From Bacteroidetes bacterium HGW-Bacteroidetes-1 (lineage in GTDB: Bacteria; Bacteroidota; Bacteroidia; Bacteroidales; F082): a DNA stretch of 34,716 nucleotides. Position numbers and translations under genes: made by a program. How positions within the stretch are numbered: position 1 is the first letter of the stretch; each line of letters begins with the position of its first letter. Under the pieces are notes generated by a model. That model was not told where the DNA came from. It searched no databases and saw only the letters and a program-made list of their open reading frames with translations. The stretch lies in contig PHDU01000034.1 in NCBI GenBank assembly GCA_002842755.1, positions 1 to 34,716 on the forward strand, written 5' to 3'. This document shows, one piece after another, positions 19,897 to 25,653 of the stretch.

Positions 19897-20448
19897 TTAT
19901 TTTATTTGGTAGTATAATTTCAACCGAGAGTTTGTTTTTAAGATACGCAAGGCGCTTTTAAGGTGCGATTTAACCGTGTTAACGGAAATATGCATGTCTT
20001 CTGCTGCAGCTTTGTACTGTAATTCTTCAAAATAAACCAGTTCAAAAACTCTACGGCATTGTAGTGGCAATTCCTTGATAGCTTTTTCGAGTATCAATTG
20101 TTCCTCCTTAGCCATAAGCAAATCGAGAACTTCATCCGCCCTGGATTCATTGGGTAGATTGGTTTGTTTCTTTTCTATTTCTTTTTCCTTTTGCAGGTAA
20201 TTGATGCAGGCATTCCTGACAGAAGTGCGTAGGTAGGCATGAAGGGAGGAATTAATACGTAGATGACACTTTTTTTCCCAGAATCCAATAAATACCTGCT
20301 GAACGATATCTTCTGCGATTGTCTGATTGTTGGTATAAACCCTCGCAATTACACAAAGTGCTGAATAGTAGTGGTCAAACATTTGACTGAATGCCTTTTC
20401 CTCATCCAATGTAAAAAGAATCAAAATAGCAGCATCTTCTTGTTCCAT
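19897..20448 (-). CDS. ECF-type RNA polymerase sigma factor (Bacteroidetes expansion family)
   Basis: The 183 residues hold sigma region 2 (about 20-85: MFDHYYSALCVIARVYTN, then TIAEDIVQQVFIGFWEKK) and region 4 (about 120-175: ELPLQCRRVFELVYFEELQYKAAAEDM, followed by the helix-turn-helix ISVNTVKSHLKSALRIL). Length and motifs fit the sigma-70 family typical of SusCD loci. The partner anti-sigma gene follows after a short spacer, so the pair forms the control unit of the downstream susCD operon. No convincing TAnnTTTG box is seen upstream of this gene. Confidence 0.94.
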   Translation of the reverse strand: MEQEDAAILILFTLDEEKAFSQMFDHYYSALCVIARVYTNNQTIAEDIVQQVFIGFWEKKCHLRINSSLHAYLRTSVRNACINYLQKEKEIEKKQTNLPNESRADEVLDLLMAKEEQLILEKAIKELPLQCRRVFELVYFEELQYKAAAEDMHISVNTVKSHLKSALRILKTNSRLKLYYQIK

Positions 20449-20648
20449 TTATGAAGGGTTAAAAGACTGTTTAAATTGTACGAAATGTCTAAAATTATTT
20501 ACTTCTCTAATATCTTGTAATGATTCAAGCAAAAATACAAAATTAAAAATACCATCTCCTGTCATGATTGGAATGTCTGAAAAGGAAGAATGATTTTTCA
20601 CGAAGCGATGATATGAACCAAAATCATGTTTTTTTTCTTTCAATATCA

Positions 20649-20676
20649 TTGTTTTTGCAAAAAACAACTACATTTG
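20649..20676 (+). promoter_or_regulatory. Promoter of the thr operon
   Basis: TACATTTG (20669-20676) is a perfect TAnnTTTG -7 box, with TTG at 20649-20651 seventeen bases upstream as a -33 element. It lies just ahead of the leader peptide ATG at 20699, giving a short 5' end before the leader. The rest of the sigma-gene/thr spacer (20449-20640) shows no gene that I can support. Confidence 0.65.
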
Positions 20677-20698
20677 GCGCTTCAAAAAGAATTACAGG

Positions 20699-20788
20699 AT
20701 GCTTACTTCGGGTACAACTTTTACTACAACGACCACTACCACAGGTGATGGTAAAGGAAGGTTTTGTCTGAAGTTGCAAGCAGTTTAA
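20699..20788 (+). CDS. thrL: Threonine-rich leader peptide of the thr operon
   Basis: A 29-residue frame reads MLTSGTTFTTTTTTTG, then DGKGRFCLKLQAV and a TAA. Ten residues are Thr, seven of them consecutive (codons 9-15), using all four Thr codons (ACT, ACA, ACG, ACC, ACT, ACC, ACA). It sits between a promoter and a terminator upstream of thrA, just like the thrL leader of enterobacteria. Its role is to sense charged tRNA-Thr: when threonine is scarce the ribosome stalls on the Thr run, and the downstream RNA folds into the antiterminator. Composition and position make chance very unlikely; activity is inferred. Confidence 0.88.
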   Translation: MLTSGTTFTTTTTTTGDGKGRFCLKLQAV

Positions 20789-20841
20789 ATAACAAAAGCG
20801 AATAAAGTCAAAGCCTTCCGAAATCGGGAGGCTTTTTTTTT
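20756..20841 (+). promoter_or_regulatory. Threonine attenuator: antiterminator and terminator hairpins
   Basis: The terminator is AAAGCCTTCCG (20810-20820) paired with CGGGAGGCTTT (20825-20835), an 11-bp stem with one wobble and an AAAT loop, followed by a T-run to 20841. The competing antiterminator pairs GGAAGGTTTTG (20756-20766), which starts 12 bases after the last Thr codon, with CAAAGCCTTCC (20809-20819): 11 bp with one wobble, consuming almost the entire 5' arm of the terminator. A ribosome stalled in the Thr run would leave the upstream arm free. A weaker pairing TTTTGT (20762-20767) with ACAAAA (20792-20797) could keep that arm busy when translation finishes. thrA starts 15 bases after the T-run. 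Confidence 0.82.
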
Positions 20842-20856
20842 AAAAAAACAAACTCT

Positions 20857-23304
20857 ATGAAAATACTCAAATTTGGTGGCACTTCTGTTGGCAGTGTCGA
20901 AGCAATCGCCTTTTTGGTCGAAATAGTAAAAAAAAGCCATAATAGCGGTCAAAAGCCAATGCTTGTTTGTTCAGCCATGAGTGGTGTAACCAACAACTTG
21001 CTTAGGATGGCTGAAAATGCTTCAAACGGTAATAATTATGCAGAAGATCTTGACAGATTGAAAAACCAGCATCTCGATATTATTAGTAGCTTTATATCTG
21101 ATAAAGAAGTGTCAGTTGAACTCATCGAAGATCTAATTTCGAAACTTGGTGCAATTCTTCATGGTGTAAATGCATTAAATGAAATCTCAGCACGTACCAA
21201 AGACCATGTGATGAGTTTCGGAGAACAGCTTTCATGCAGAATGATCACCGCCATTATGCAGGAGATGGTTGGTCCGACCATCTATACCGACAGTCGTCCA
21301 TTTATCATCACCGACAACAGTTTTGGTAATGCTATGATTGCTCAGGAAGAAACCTTCAGCCAAATCTGTCAGTGGTATGATCAACTTGGTGAGGCAATTC
21401 CAGTTATAACAGGCTTCATTGCCAGCAACACTACTGGAAAAACCACAACGCTTGGTCGCGGTGGTTCCGATTACACTGCTTCTATAGTTGGGGCGGCCCT
21501 CAATGCAAAGGAAATACAAATATGGACCGATGTAAACGGTTTTATGACTGCTGATCCGCGCTTGGTCAGAAATGCTTTTACCCTCTCTGAACTCAGTTAT
21601 AAAGAAGCCATGGAGCTTTCCTATTTTGGCGCAAAAGTCATCTATCCACCTACCCTGATTCCTGCTATTTCAAAAAACATTCCCATTCTGATCAAAAACA
21701 CTTTCAATTCAACACATGCAGGAACTGCTATTTTGCCAAAAAGCACAACCAATGGAAGTATCATCAAGGGGATTTCATCCATTAAAAATGTCAGCCTTAT
21801 TAATGTAGAAGGGAACGGTATGGTTGGGTTGAAAGGTTTTGGCGGACGGCTTTTTGGTGCGCTTGCCAAAGCGGATGTAAACATTATTCTTATCACCCAG
21901 GCCAGTTCAGAACACAGCATAAGTTTTGCTATTGCACCGGACTATACAAAACCAGCTCTTGAAGCGATTCAAAATGAGTTTGAAATGGAAATTTTCAACA
22001 AGAAAATTGAACAACCAACGGCTGAAACCCAACTAAGTATTCTTGCCGTTGTAGGCGAAAATATGCGTCATACAAAAGGTTTATCCGGGAAGCTATTCCA
22101 GTCTCTGGGTCGAAGTGGCGTTAACGTCATAGCCATTGCGCAAGGGTCTTCAGAACTGAATATTTCGGTTGTAATTGCTGAAGAAGACCTTTCAAAAGCA
22201 CTCAATTCGGTGCACGATTCCCTGTTTTTATCACCGGTTAAAACTCTTCATTTGTTTTGCGCTGGAACCGGAAATATTGGTACTGAACTGCTAAGTCAGC
22301 TTATGCAGTCTGAAAACGCACTTCAAATAAATCATCAAATGCACTTGAAAGTAATGGGCATTATCAACAGCAGAAAAATGGTTTTTGCAAAAGATGGAGG
22401 CATAGACCTGAAAGACTGGAAAAATATTCTTTTTGAACAGGGAAAAAAAGCAGATTTGAAAGCATTCATTAAAGAGATTGAAAAAATGAATCTTCCTGGC
22501 AGTATCTTCATCGATAATACCAGCAATCAACAATTGGTTGAGCAATATGATGCACTTTTCAATCAAAATGTGTCAGTGGTTGCATGCAATAAACTGGGAG
22601 CTTCCGGGCCCTTTGCCACTTACAGTAAACTGAAGAGATCGGCACGCAAAAAAGGCGTTGACTTCTTATTTGAAACCAATGTTGGTGCTGGATTGCCTAT
22701 CATCAAAACCATGAATGACTTGCATATTAGTGGCGACCGATTCCTTAAAATTGAAGCCATTCTGTCGGGTACCATTTCTTTCATTTTCAACAATTATAAA
22801 AACGATCGTAGCTTTGCAGATGTTGTTTTGGAAGCGCAACAAAAAGGATTCACCGAACCCGATCCACGCGACGACCTTAGTGGCATGGATTTCTCTCGTA
22901 AAATGCTTATCCTTGCACGTGAAACAGGGTTGCCTCTGGAAATGCAGGATGTCAATATTGAATCTATCCTGCCAGAGGCCAGTTTGAAAGCTCCTTCAAT
23001 TGAGGCTTTTTATGAAGAATTAAAACGATCGGAAAAATATTTTTCGGCACTCAAAAGCAAGGCTGCATCAGAAAATAAAGTGTTAAGATATATTGGCATG
23101 ATCGAAGATGGACAGATACATATCCGATTGAGTTTTGTTGGACTGGAACATCCGTTTTACAGCCTCAGCGGGAGTGACAACATCATTTCTTTCACAACGC
23201 TTCGCTACAAAAATACTCCACTGGTTGTGAAAGGTCCTGGCGCAGGCGCCGAAGTCACCGCTACAGGCGTATTTGCCGATATTTTAAGAGTGGCGTCATT
23301 CTGA
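20857..23304 (+). CDS. thrA: Bifunctional aspartokinase / homoserine dehydrogenase
   Basis: ThrA catalyses the first and third steps from aspartate to threonine: phosphorylation of aspartate and reduction of aspartate semialdehyde to homoserine. The 815 residues match the bifunctional family length. The kinase domain starts with KFGGTSVGS (residues 5-13) and has GRGGSDYTAS near 202. Two ACT-like regulatory segments lie about 310-460 (LINVEGNGMVGLKGFGGRLFGALA; VVGENMRHTKGLSGKLFQSLGRSGVNV). The dehydrogenase begins with the NAD(P) motif GTGNIGTELL near 470 and includes EAILSGTISFIF. The ACT domains suggest feedback inhibition by threonine on top of transcript attenuation. It is the first gene of thrABC. 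Confidence 0.97.
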   Translation: MKILKFGGTSVGSVEAIAFLVEIVKKSHNSGQKPMLVCSAMSGVTNNLLRMAENASNGNNYAEDLDRLKNQHLDIISSFISDKEVSVELIEDLISKLGAILHGVNALNEISARTKDHVMSFGEQLSCRMITAIMQEMVGPTIYTDSRPFIITDNSFGNAMIAQEETFSQICQWYDQLGEAIPVITGFIASNTTGKTTTLGRGGSDYTASIVGAALNAKEIQIWTDVNGFMTADPRLVRNAFTLSELSYKEAMELSYFGAKVIYPPTLIPAISKNIPILIKNTFNSTHAGTAILPKSTTNGSIIKGISSIKNVSLINVEGNGMVGLKGFGGRLFGALAKADVNIILITQASSEHSISFAIAPDYTKPALEAIQNEFEMEIFNKKIEQPTAETQLSILAVVGENMRHTKGLSGKLFQSLGRSGVNVIAIAQGSSELNISVVIAEEDLSKALNSVHDSLFLSPVKTLHLFCAGTGNIGTELLSQLMQSENALQINHQMHLKVMGIINSRKMVFAKDGGIDLKDWKNILFEQGKKADLKAFIKEIEKMNLPGSIFIDNTSNQQLVEQYDALFNQNVSVVACNKLGASGPFATYSKLKRSARKKGVDFLFETNVGAGLPIIKTMNDLHISGDRFLKIEAILSGTISFIFNNYKNDRSFADVVLEAQQKGFTEPDPRDDLSGMDFSRKMLILARETGLPLEMQDVNIESILPEASLKAPSIEAFYEELKRSEKYFSALKSKAASENKVLRYIGMIEDGQIHIRLSFVGLEHPFYSLSGSDNIISFTTLRYKNTPLVVKGPGAGAEVTATGVFADILRVASF

Positions 23305-23377
23305 TAAAAAATCTGTTTTCATTGTGGCAAACAAGAATTAAGTAAAATATGAACACCTTTGCAATAAACAATTAATC

Positions 23378-24325
23378 ATGCCAAACGTAATTTCTAAATC
23401 CGTCAAAGTTTTTGCTCCAGCCTCGGTTTCGAACCTTAATTGTGGTTTTGATATATTGGGCTTCGCGTTGGATGATCCAGGTGATGAAGTAATTTTAACA
23501 CTCAATGAAAGCAAAAAGGTAAGCATAGAAAAAATAACCGGTGACAATGGACTTCTTCCAACCGATCCCGAAAAAAACACAGCCTCCGCTGTCATTCAAT
23601 ATTATCTAAAGCAAATAAATTCCAATCAAGGTGTTAGCATTATTTTACACAAAAAAATGCCGCTTAACAGCGGCCTGGGATCAAGTGCTGCCAGTAGTGT
23701 AGCCGCATTGGTTGGTATCAATGAGCTCATGGGAAAGCCCATGTCGCGTCGCGAGCTTCTTCCATTTGCCATGGAAGGCGAATGCCTTGCCTGTGGAAAT
23801 GCCCATGCCGACAACGTGGCACCTTCATTGTTTGGTGGTCTGGTGCTTATTCGTGGTTACAATCCACCGGATATTGTGAAACTGCCAGTTCCAGATAACC
23901 TTTGGTGCGCTATCGTCCATCCGGAATTAAGTATTCCTACAAGAGAGGCCCGACAGATATTGCCAGCTACGATTCCATTGCGCGATGCTGTTATTCAATG
24001 GGGAAATGTGGCCGGACTCATTGCAGGTTTTTATTCCAACGATATGGAGCTTATCCGACGAAGTATGCAGGATGTAATAATTGAACCTGTCAGAAAAGTT
24101 CGCATTCCTCTTTTTGATTCCATGCGAAAGATTGCAATGGACGCAGGAGCTATTGGATTTGGTATTTCTGGTTCAGGGCCAACTGTTTTTGCTTTTTGTA
24201 ATAGTTTAATCCAATCGGAAAATATTTGTAAATCTATTTCAAGCCTTTTGCTAACCAGCTCCATTGAGAACCAATTTTATGTTTCGAAAATTAACCAGCA
24301 AGGAGCTTTAATAACAACACTTTAG
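23378..24325 (+). CDS. thrB: Homoserine kinase
   Basis: ThrB phosphorylates homoserine to O-phosphohomoserine. The 315 residues show the GHMP-kinase features: N-terminal VFAPASVSNLNCGFDILGFAL, the ATP-binding PLNSGLGSSAASSVAAL near 96-112 and the C-terminal GAIGFGISGSGPTVFAF. Length is normal. It follows thrA after 73 bases and precedes thrC by only two bases, so thrB and thrC are translationally coupled or nearly so. Confidence 0.96.
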   Translation: MPNVISKSVKVFAPASVSNLNCGFDILGFALDDPGDEVILTLNESKKVSIEKITGDNGLLPTDPEKNTASAVIQYYLKQINSNQGVSIILHKKMPLNSGLGSSAASSVAALVGINELMGKPMSRRELLPFAMEGECLACGNAHADNVAPSLFGGLVLIRGYNPPDIVKLPVPDNLWCAIVHPELSIPTREARQILPATIPLRDAVIQWGNVAGLIAGFYSNDMELIRRSMQDVIIEPVRKVRIPLFDSMRKIAMDAGAIGFGISGSGPTVFAFCNSLIQSENICKSISSLLLTSSIENQFYVSKINQQGALITTL

Positions 24326-24327
24326 AT

Positions 24328-25653
24328 ATGTACTTTGTATCGACACGCGACAAAGACCAACTCCATCCGGTAAGCTTAAGTGAAGCAGTCATTAAAGGAC
24401 TTGCAAATGATGGTGGTCTTTTTATGCCACAAAAAATTAACACCCTGATCAAAGAAGAACTGGTGAAAATCCCTTTTATGAATCTTCATGAAATTGCATC
24501 CCTTGTATTGAGTCTTTTCCTTGGCGATGCAGTGAAGAAAGAGAAGCTGGAAAGTATCTGTGCTGAAGTTTTCAACTTTCAGATTCCTTTGGTTGAGATA
24601 GAAAAAAATATTTATAGTTTAGAGCTTTTTCATGGTCCTACCCTTGCGTTTAAAGATGTCGGAGCTCGCTTTATGGCACGAATTCTTGAATACTTTTCCA
24701 GTGATTACAAAAAGGAAATTAAAGTGGTTGTTGCTACCTCAGGAGATACCGGAAGTGCAGTTGCCGCAGGTTTTCATGGTGTGAATGGAATACAGGTATA
24801 TATTCTGTATCCGAAGGGAAAAGTGAGCAGAATGCAGCAAAAACAGCTCACGACCTGGGGTGAAAATATTACTGCTTTGGAGCTTCAGGGTACTTTCGAT
24901 GATTGTCAATATCATGTTAAAAAGTTACTTTCTGACCCTGAACTCAGGCTCACAAGTCTTTTCACTTCTGCAAACAGTATCAATATCGCCCGCTTACTAC
25001 CACAGGTTGTTTATTATGTTTATGCCTGGAGTCGTGTTCAACATCATGGTAAACCAATCATAATGAGTGTTCCAAGTGGTAATTTTGGAAACCTGACAGC
25101 TGGGATTCTGGCGCAAAAGATTGGTGTTCCAATTTTTCATTTCATTGCAGCAACCAATAAAAACGACATAGTTCCGGTTTATTTGCGCGAAGGAAATTTT
25201 TTACCCCGGCCTTCGGTTCAAACCATCAGCAATGCAATGGATGTTGGTAATCCGAGCAATTTTGAACGACTGTTACAACTTTTTGACAACGCTTATCCTG
25301 CCCTGCGAAAAGCCATAAGTGGCTACAGTTATTCCGATGAAGAAACACAAAAAGCAATGATAAACATATTTGAATCTTATGCATATGTTTCTGACCCACA
25401 TGGAGCGATCGGTTTTTTAGGTTTAAAACAATACATTTCGGAGCATCCGGGTGAATTTTCAGGTGTTTTTCTTGAGACGGCTCATCCGGCCAAGTTTCAT
25501 GAGACAGTTGAAAAATGCCTTGATATTACGATTTCAATTCCTGAAAAACTTAAAGCCTTTGAAGAAAAAGAAGGTCATGCTGTTGCTTGTTTGAATGATT
25601 ATGAAACAGTGAAAAAACTGATTCTAAATGGCGTTTCCAATGCCAAACAATAG
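24328..25653 (+). CDS. thrC: Threonine synthase
   Basis: ThrC is a pyridoxal-phosphate enzyme that converts O-phosphohomoserine to threonine. The 441 residues contain the N-terminal MYFVSTRDKDQLHPVSLSEAV-type start, the PLP-lysine motif ELFHGPTLAFKDVGARFM (Lys near 111), VVVATSGDTGSAVAAGFHGV and SVPSGNFGNLTAGILA. It is the last gene of the thr operon; the next gene converges on it from the other strand. A short imperfect inverted repeat around 25674-25700 overlaps that gene's end and lacks a U-tract, so termination here is uncertain. Confidence 0.96.
   Translation: MYFVSTRDKDQLHPVSLSEAVIKGLANDGGLFMPQKINTLIKEELVKIPFMNLHEIASLVLSLFLGDAVKKEKLESICAEVFNFQIPLVEIEKNIYSLELFHGPTLAFKDVGARFMARILEYFSSDYKKEIKVVVATSGDTGSAVAAGFHGVNGIQVYILYPKGKVSRMQQKQLTTWGENITALELQGTFDDCQYHVKKLLSDPELRLTSLFTSANSINIARLLPQVVYYVYAWSRVQHHGKPIIMSVPSGNFGNLTAGILAQKIGVPIFHFIAATNKNDIVPVYLREGNFLPRPSVQTISNAMDVGNPSNFERLLQLFDNAYPALRKAISGYSYSDEETQKAMINIFESYAYVSDPHGAIGFLGLKQYISEHPGEFSGVFLETAHPAKFHETVEKCLDITISIPEKLKAFEEKEGHAVACLNDYETVKKLILNGVSNAKQ

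Follow-up and report, generated by a model that had tools for sequence, protein, structure and literature searches.

Directly upstream of the thrABC genes in the window (the whole 34,716-nucleotide stretch of DNA analysed here, from Bacteroidetes bacterium HGW-Bacteroidetes-1) lies an element that can be read, with a probability of roughly 85%, as a ribosome-mediated transcription attenuator sensing charged tRNA-Thr. To judge from its sequence and that of its relatives, it is most likely a real, conserved and working threonine attenuator, and mildly surprising by phylum. Anatomy, operon and conservation all support the reading as a threonine leader-peptide attenuator proposed in an initial annotation of this DNA, the response to threonine being its predicted part. 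From 5' to 3', the locus contains a promoter-like element, a leader ORF, an antiterminator arm, its complement, a terminator and thrA-thrB-thrC (20857-25653, plus strand):

19897-20448, minus strand: sigma-factor gene (Pfam), the nearest upstream ORF among those of at least 100 amino acids
20649-20676, plus strand: putative promoter read from the sequence, with TTG (20649-20651), an N17 spacer and TACATTTG (20669-20676)
20699-20788, plus strand: leader ORF of 29 codons, MLTSGTTFTTTTTTTGDGKGRFCLKLQAV followed by a stop, read from the sequence, with counterparts at seven other loci of the genus
20700-20727, plus strand: region 1, a stretch of the leader able in folding to form a protector hairpin (1:2) with region 2 plus its 3' flank
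20723-20743, plus strand: control codons 9-15, ACT ACA ACG ACC ACT ACC ACA
20756-20766, plus strand: region 2, the upstream arm of the antiterminator, GGAAGGTTTTG, which begins 12 nt after the last Thr codon
20809-20819, plus strand: region 3, CAAAGCCTTCC, the antiterminator partner of region 2, from duplex folding and alignment
20810-20841, plus strand: intrinsic terminator from a terminator scan, 20810-20820 with 20825-20835, 11 pairs, loop of 4, T run of nine at 20833-20841
20857-23304, plus strand: thrA, fused aspartate kinase-homoserine dehydrogenase (AK-HSDH; Pfam AA_kinase, ACT, NAD_binding_3 and Homoserine_dh)
23378-24325, plus strand: thrB-like GHMP kinase (Pfam GHMP_kinases N and C), probably homoserine kinase
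24328-25653, plus strand: thrC, threonine synthase (Pfam Thr_synth_N, PALP and THR4_C)

The leader is a short ORF rich in codons for threonine, the end product of the operon, and an intrinsic terminator lies on the same strand between it and thrA. The initial annotation counted its 29 codons and seven consecutive threonine codons with all four synonyms correctly, as read from the sequence; the leader peptide has no Pfam match. Only 15 nt lie between the T run and the start of thrA, which leaves too little room for another promoter, so that transcription of thrA very probably passes the terminator. No upstream gene on the plus strand that needs this terminator is seen, since the nearest upstream ORF of at least 100 amino acids is on the minus strand. 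The promoter-like element is putatively of the TAnnTTTG type, given as a Bacteroidota promoter consensus in PMC9723704. Such a box is found upstream of the leader in all eight leaders of the genus, and no sigma-70-type promoter matches the plus strand of the region; the strict pattern TTTG-N17-22-TAnnTTTG does not match the window's element.

Under the attenuator reading, transcription would start a few nucleotides 3' of the TACATTTG box, as is expected for boxes of this type, and a ribosome would translate the leader behind RNA polymerase. With ample Thr-tRNA, the ribosome would clear the threonine run, the leader would fold on itself (1:2) or be covered, and region 3 would pair with region 4, ending transcription at the T run before thrA. 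With scarce Thr-tRNA, the ribosome would stall on codons 9-15 and leave region 2, 12 nt past the last Thr codon, free to pair with region 3 as it emerges; this 2:3 pairing would block the terminator, and thrABC would be transcribed. Compared with its relatives, the window has the leader stop shifted 12 nt in the 3' direction (TTG in place of their TAG), so that a ribosome at the stop codon would probably leave region 2 uncovered, and shut-off would have to rely on 1:2 pairing after release.

Calculation bears out the terminator with its U-tract and the competing antiterminator; the 11 bp that the initial annotation counted for each, and its 12 bases from the Thr run to the upstream arm, are also right. 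A terminator scan of 20450-20900 found two terminator-like sites, one of them nested (shuffles: mean 0.3, sd 0.5). The antiterminator duplex (20756-20766/20809-20819) has 11 bp and -17.0 kcal/mol, a value matched by 0 of 500 shuffles. For the leader RNA (20680-20845) the folding z-score is -3.27, and none of 200 shuffles is as stable. The 2:3 and 3:4 pairings are mutually exclusive in silico.

Nine genomes of the genus were sampled (G000-G008), eight of which encode the fused ThrA, at nine loci. The leader with its Thr run, both arms and the terminator is kept at eight of these nine loci, from seven genomes; no Thr leader is present upstream of thrA in G005 (L007), although its thrA is of the window's type, and no ThrA of this type was found in G001. 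Across the eight related sequences, pairing holds in 97.7% of terminator cells and 92.0% of antiterminator cells, and compensated pairs number two and one, respectively; slid controls give, in the same order, 34-78% and 36-68% paired cells. Shuffles reach the compensated pairs of the terminator in 5 of 500 cases and its paired cells in 17 of 500, and the values of the antiterminator in 72 of 500, a weak excess. The distance from the last Thr codon to the arm is 12 nt at seven loci and 13 nt at one, and the runs stay threonine in frame with synonymous differences. G002 has two thrA copies (L006 and L021) on two contigs, both with Thr leaders, with arms unlike each other; it is either one genome or a mixed bin.

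The arrangement extends to f121, a family of the same class in another order, represented by near-complete assemblies of 1-100 contigs. At each of its seven loci the leader mixes Thr with Ile codons (e.g. ending in MTINNTIITTIITTGIKDGGR before the stop), and there is an arm, for instance GGAGGAAG, and a terminator, for instance GCCTTCCTCC..GGAGGAAGGC. The spacing from Thr to the arm is 12 nt at four of the seven (G576, G531, G416 and G397), and 15 nt in G319, 10 nt in G455 and 4 nt in G439. The terminator core is GCGTCCC/GGGACGC in G397 and G455 versus GCCTTCC/GGAAGGC in the other five, and the antiterminator arm differs to match.

The Thr run alone is not beyond chance: the 4.23-Mb genome has two stretches of at least six consecutive Thr codons, and the backward control pattern matches 12 times. 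That a Thr-rich stretch and a terminator merely happen to precede thrA is nevertheless extremely improbable. Relatives with thrA that lack the Thr leader or covarying arms, which the initial annotation had named as evidence against it, are not the pattern found, since the leader is kept at 8/9 loci of the genus and 7/7 of f121. Of 131 Bacteroidota thrA upstream regions (500 nt), 71 have a Thr-rich mini-ORF, versus 3 on the reverse strand, a control that is not neutral in composition where Thr codons are concerned. Some of the 71 are probably due to chance (e.g. L015, L071, L085 and L117), and several depend on TTG or GTG as the start codon. Location and conservation of the Thr run are beyond chance, not the run itself.

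Folding was compared in 15 type-A leaders (eight from the genus and seven from f121), with ribosome states imposed by masking. The antiterminator duplex is reached by at most 25 of 500 shuffles in 11 of the 15 leaders and by more than 5% of shuffles in L021, L061, L062 and L063. The 1:2 pairing, between the coding part and region 2 with its flank, is as good in 11 of 500 shuffles of the window; it is likewise reached by at most 25 of 500 in 11 of the 15 and by more than 5% in L008, L021, L061 and L062. When the leader is masked past its last Thr codon and the 3' arm of the terminator is not yet made, the antiterminator folds in 15/15, counting L062 with an earlier mask set by hand where the standard one would have hidden the arm, and L006, L008, L009, L063 and L064 with masks one Thr codon short of that intended, the arms being exposed either way. 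A mask past the leader stop gives the antiterminator in 0/15, by construction. Under the imposed masking, then, a stall at the control codons releases an antiterminator incompatible with the terminator. Once the stalled RNA is complete, only two of the 15 (the window and L059) have the antiterminator as their minimum-energy fold; in the other 13 the terminator is more stable, so that the order of synthesis must decide, as it does in known attenuators.

The strength of the terminator, the rarity of the antiterminator as minimum-energy fold of the complete RNA (2/15) and the lack of any visible strong start-site signal could also be explained by a constitutive partial terminator that merely sets the level of thrABC, the Thr-rich ORF being a relic or untranslated. 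This explanation is improbable: the Thr codons, the spacing and the complementary arms persist amid drift elsewhere, and the arms of f121 differ together. Still less probable is a protein or small molecule that binds the leader RNA in place of a stalled ribosome, with the Thr codons there for RNA reasons. Because the 1:2 pairing uses the coding part, some codon choice may indeed be RNA-driven, but the run stays threonine in frame with synonymous differences, and Ile codons stand among the Thr codons in f121. A stalled ribosome reading threonine codons is the preferred explanation.

Unlike the leaders of E. coli and f121, those of the genus lack Ile in the 14 codons that end with the last Thr. 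IlvD was found in 0/9 genomes of the genus, and ketol-acid reductoisomerase (KARI, IlvC), used after IlvD as a more specific marker, is missing from eight of the nine (controls 14/14), the exception being G002 (contig C456). The 80 genomes examined for KARI yield 67 Thr leaders: where KARI is present, 47 have Ile and 13 do not (two of the 13 from G002); where it is absent, six lack Ile and one has it (G476). Since the six all come from one genus, they represent one consistent event and not a test. The missing IlvD and KARI fit thr leaders whose control codons include no Ile, as seen in the genus.

In a search of the phylum, the nearest ThrA proteins outside the genus are those of f121 and of G324 (family f122), 54-56% identical, in the same class but another order. 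ThrA proteins of the window's own order are 42-48% identical, except those of f33 and f39 (51-52%) and a partial match in G030 (51%). A tree of 74 ThrA proteins, made by a quick method without bootstrap, in which the long E. coli branch is unsurely placed, contains one clade of 18 (SH-aLRT 100) that comprises the genus (eight rows), f121 (seven), G324, f33 and f39. Judged from these proteins, the attenuator goes with one ThrA type common to at least two orders, through transfer or old duplication, and homology of the leaders of the genus and f121 is likely. The initial annotation offered ancient sharing or convergence as the alternatives, a choice that is too narrow for a leader that follows one ThrA clade across at least two orders. 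Other sampled Bacteroidota thrA genes have a differently built Thr leader, or none was found.

Within the clade, thrA of f33 (G056, L146) and f39 (G062, L147) lacks its own leader in the 500 nt upstream; it lies directly 3' of a frame that we take to be LeuB-like, on the same contig as KARI, and L146 and L147 have the threonine genes inside a branched-chain cluster. In G324 (L057), thrA is preceded by a hairpin carrying a short T tract and, 5' of it, by a leader-like ORF, MTTIMSIMGDVQSWR, whose Met, Thr and Ile codons might make it a sensor of these three amino acids; this locus was not counted, as the terminator finder did not accept its hairpin.

The E. coli thrL leader (RF00506) resembles that of the window in being Thr-rich, directly upstream of thrABC, and equipped with a terminator/antiterminator switch; even the leader ends compare (TTGNGAG in E. 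coli versus TTGNGKRRF in G003). It differs in that the control codons of the genus lack Ile, the arm begins 12 nt after the last Thr codon in the window and 6 nt in thrL, the arm sequence is GGAAGGTTTTG versus GGTGCGGGCT, and the putative promoter of the window is of Bacteroidota type, unlike that of the E. coli thr operon. Membership of the window leader in Rfam Thr_leader (RF00506) was ruled out (20.2 bits, E 0.13, gathering score 55); the Phe_leader model scores higher (28.9 bits), also under its own threshold of 55, and there is no Rfam match at the gathering threshold in the window or in 20 related loci.

A covariance model, R1, built from the eight leader sequences of the genus finds, over the full model, the seven f121 leaders at 39-59 bits and those of E. 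coli, Salmonella, Klebsiella and Shimwellia at 31-44 bits (E. coli thrL 44.0); L057 scores 8.5 bits, and L007, L146 and L147 have no match. Among controls, R1 scores Asn leaders at up to 43.4 bits (L028), His leaders at up to 27.5 and Thr leaders of another layout at up to 13.4. Nulls with the Thr/Ile codons recoded, the spacer shuffled and the terminators drawn at random, in which arm complementarity is not forced, reach the sequence-only R1 score of E. coli thrL in 3 of 1500 cases; for four of the seven f121 leaders the figures are 3, 8, 0 and 0 of 800. Across 295 genomes of the order, 167 have a match at E<=0.01, most of those listed covering only the later, terminator part, and of the best two listed apart from the window, one is an Asn leader (L028) and the other lacks a Thr run (L029); with such partial and non-Thr matches, R1 at E<=0.01 does not reliably detect Thr leaders.

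A common origin with enterobacterial thrL is undecided from these comparisons. It is a tentative and rather unlikely idea that Bacteroidota possess a reusable 2:3:4 chassis, which moved with the thr clade between orders, took up other sensor codons, such as Asn before asnA with a common 12-mer in another frame, and may share its origin with thrL. If true, this would contradict a gamma-proteobacterial rise of such attenuators, an origin suggested from Rfam models in PMC3766115. The proteins give no support to a recent acquisition of the thr operon from enterobacteria: E. coli ThrA is 34.9% identical to that of the window and 34.4-39.3% to the other Bacteroidota ThrA proteins (73 compared in all). 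The window's ThrA as a query found no relative in a collection of genome contigs; with E. coli ThrA as the query, the best 80 of 562 confirmed matches are all enterobacterial by title.

Bacteroidota cases may already be listed by Lopatovskaya et al. (2010), a reference in PMC4833913, and no paper on a Bacteroidota thr attenuator was found by title in the open-licence literature, among the matches listed. Leader-peptide attenuation is known as a kind, in outline also for Bacteroidota: strong clues to it upstream of amino-acid operons are described for Flavobacterium psychrophilum (PMC9723704, ISME Commun 2021). That species belongs to the same phylum as the window, and the section of PMC9723704 on 5' cis-regulatory RNAs names conserved 5' elements of pheA and hisG, without Rfam matches, and not thrA. 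Bacteroides sORFs reminiscent of leader peptides are mentioned in PMC7366714. The authors of PMC2965389, writing in 2010, state in the part consulted that they knew of no leader-peptide system shown outside Proteobacteria and Actinobacteria, ermC apart, and a system in Firmicutes is proposed there.

The survey of leaders around the window's attenuator is more interesting than the attenuator itself, which is probably one of several leader switches in Bacteroidota. Two orders have a complete thr attenuator whose arms differ in matching ways, and Thr-rich mini-ORFs precede about half of the thrA genes sampled (71/131). Together these point to a strategy widespread in a phylum whose promoters are of another type and whose Shine-Dalgarno signals, according to the initial annotation, are weak. 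The attenuator offers a compact system for asking whether transcription-translation coupling in Bacteroidota is close enough for attenuation.

The 131 regions were selected from 130 genomes and comprise the window, 17 loci from one ThrA search, and loci from 89 of the 225 genomes matched in the search of the phylum and from 24 of the 46 matched in a further search; the divergent ThrA copies L020, L022 and L023 and the truncated L019 were left out. Coordinates are slightly off in places, 28 of 29 minus-strand pieces of 600 bases being off by one base, and L121 and L134 beginning a few residues inside the match. Threonine shows by far the largest excess of any amino acid over the reverse strand, followed by Leu (56 versus 46) and His (9 versus 0).

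Many of these regions have a second layout, in which Thr/Ile codons run directly into an ACCCC-loop-GGGGT hairpin, typically ACCCCTTAGGGGT. Like the window, they have a Thr/Ile-rich mini-ORF upstream of thrA; unlike it, the hairpin adjoins the Thr run, and a clear U-tract terminator is absent by eye. At least three Thr/Ile codons running into a CCC-loop-GGG palindrome are present in 33/131 regions and 1/131 on the reverse strand, while such palindromes in themselves occur in 58 of the 131 on either strand. Examples are L115, L108, L097, L116, L010, L016 and L162, with peptides that end in TTTTTP, TPLG or TPWG; a ACATATAATCC-like block follows 3' of the element in many f124 loci. The second-layout loci tested have no Rfam match.

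Asparagine leaders were seen upstream of asnA in the window's order. Asn-rich leader ORFs followed by terminator-like hairpins are in tandem at L028, L273, L274 and L276, each ORF with its own hairpin and T run by eye, and single at L272 and L275. The layout is as in the window, except for the Asn codons and the two leaders in tandem at four loci. Asn-rich mini-ORFs occur at 5 of 29 asnA loci in a sample of the order (reverse strand 2/29), with L028 as an additional case, its AsnA confirmed by Pfam. The 12-mer GGGAAGGTTTTG is common to the Asn leader L276 and two Thr leaders (L004 and L008, from the genomes G006 and G008) in different frames, which points to a constraint at the RNA level rather than the peptide level.

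Histidine leaders were found in the genus, the scope within which HisG was checked. Five of the six genomes with hisG found have a His-rich leader and a strong terminator directly upstream of it (L285 in the window's own genome, L280, L282, L283 and L284), with a peptide ending such as FHHTHHRSRYLLGACALYCI before the stop; L281 has the terminator and few His codons.
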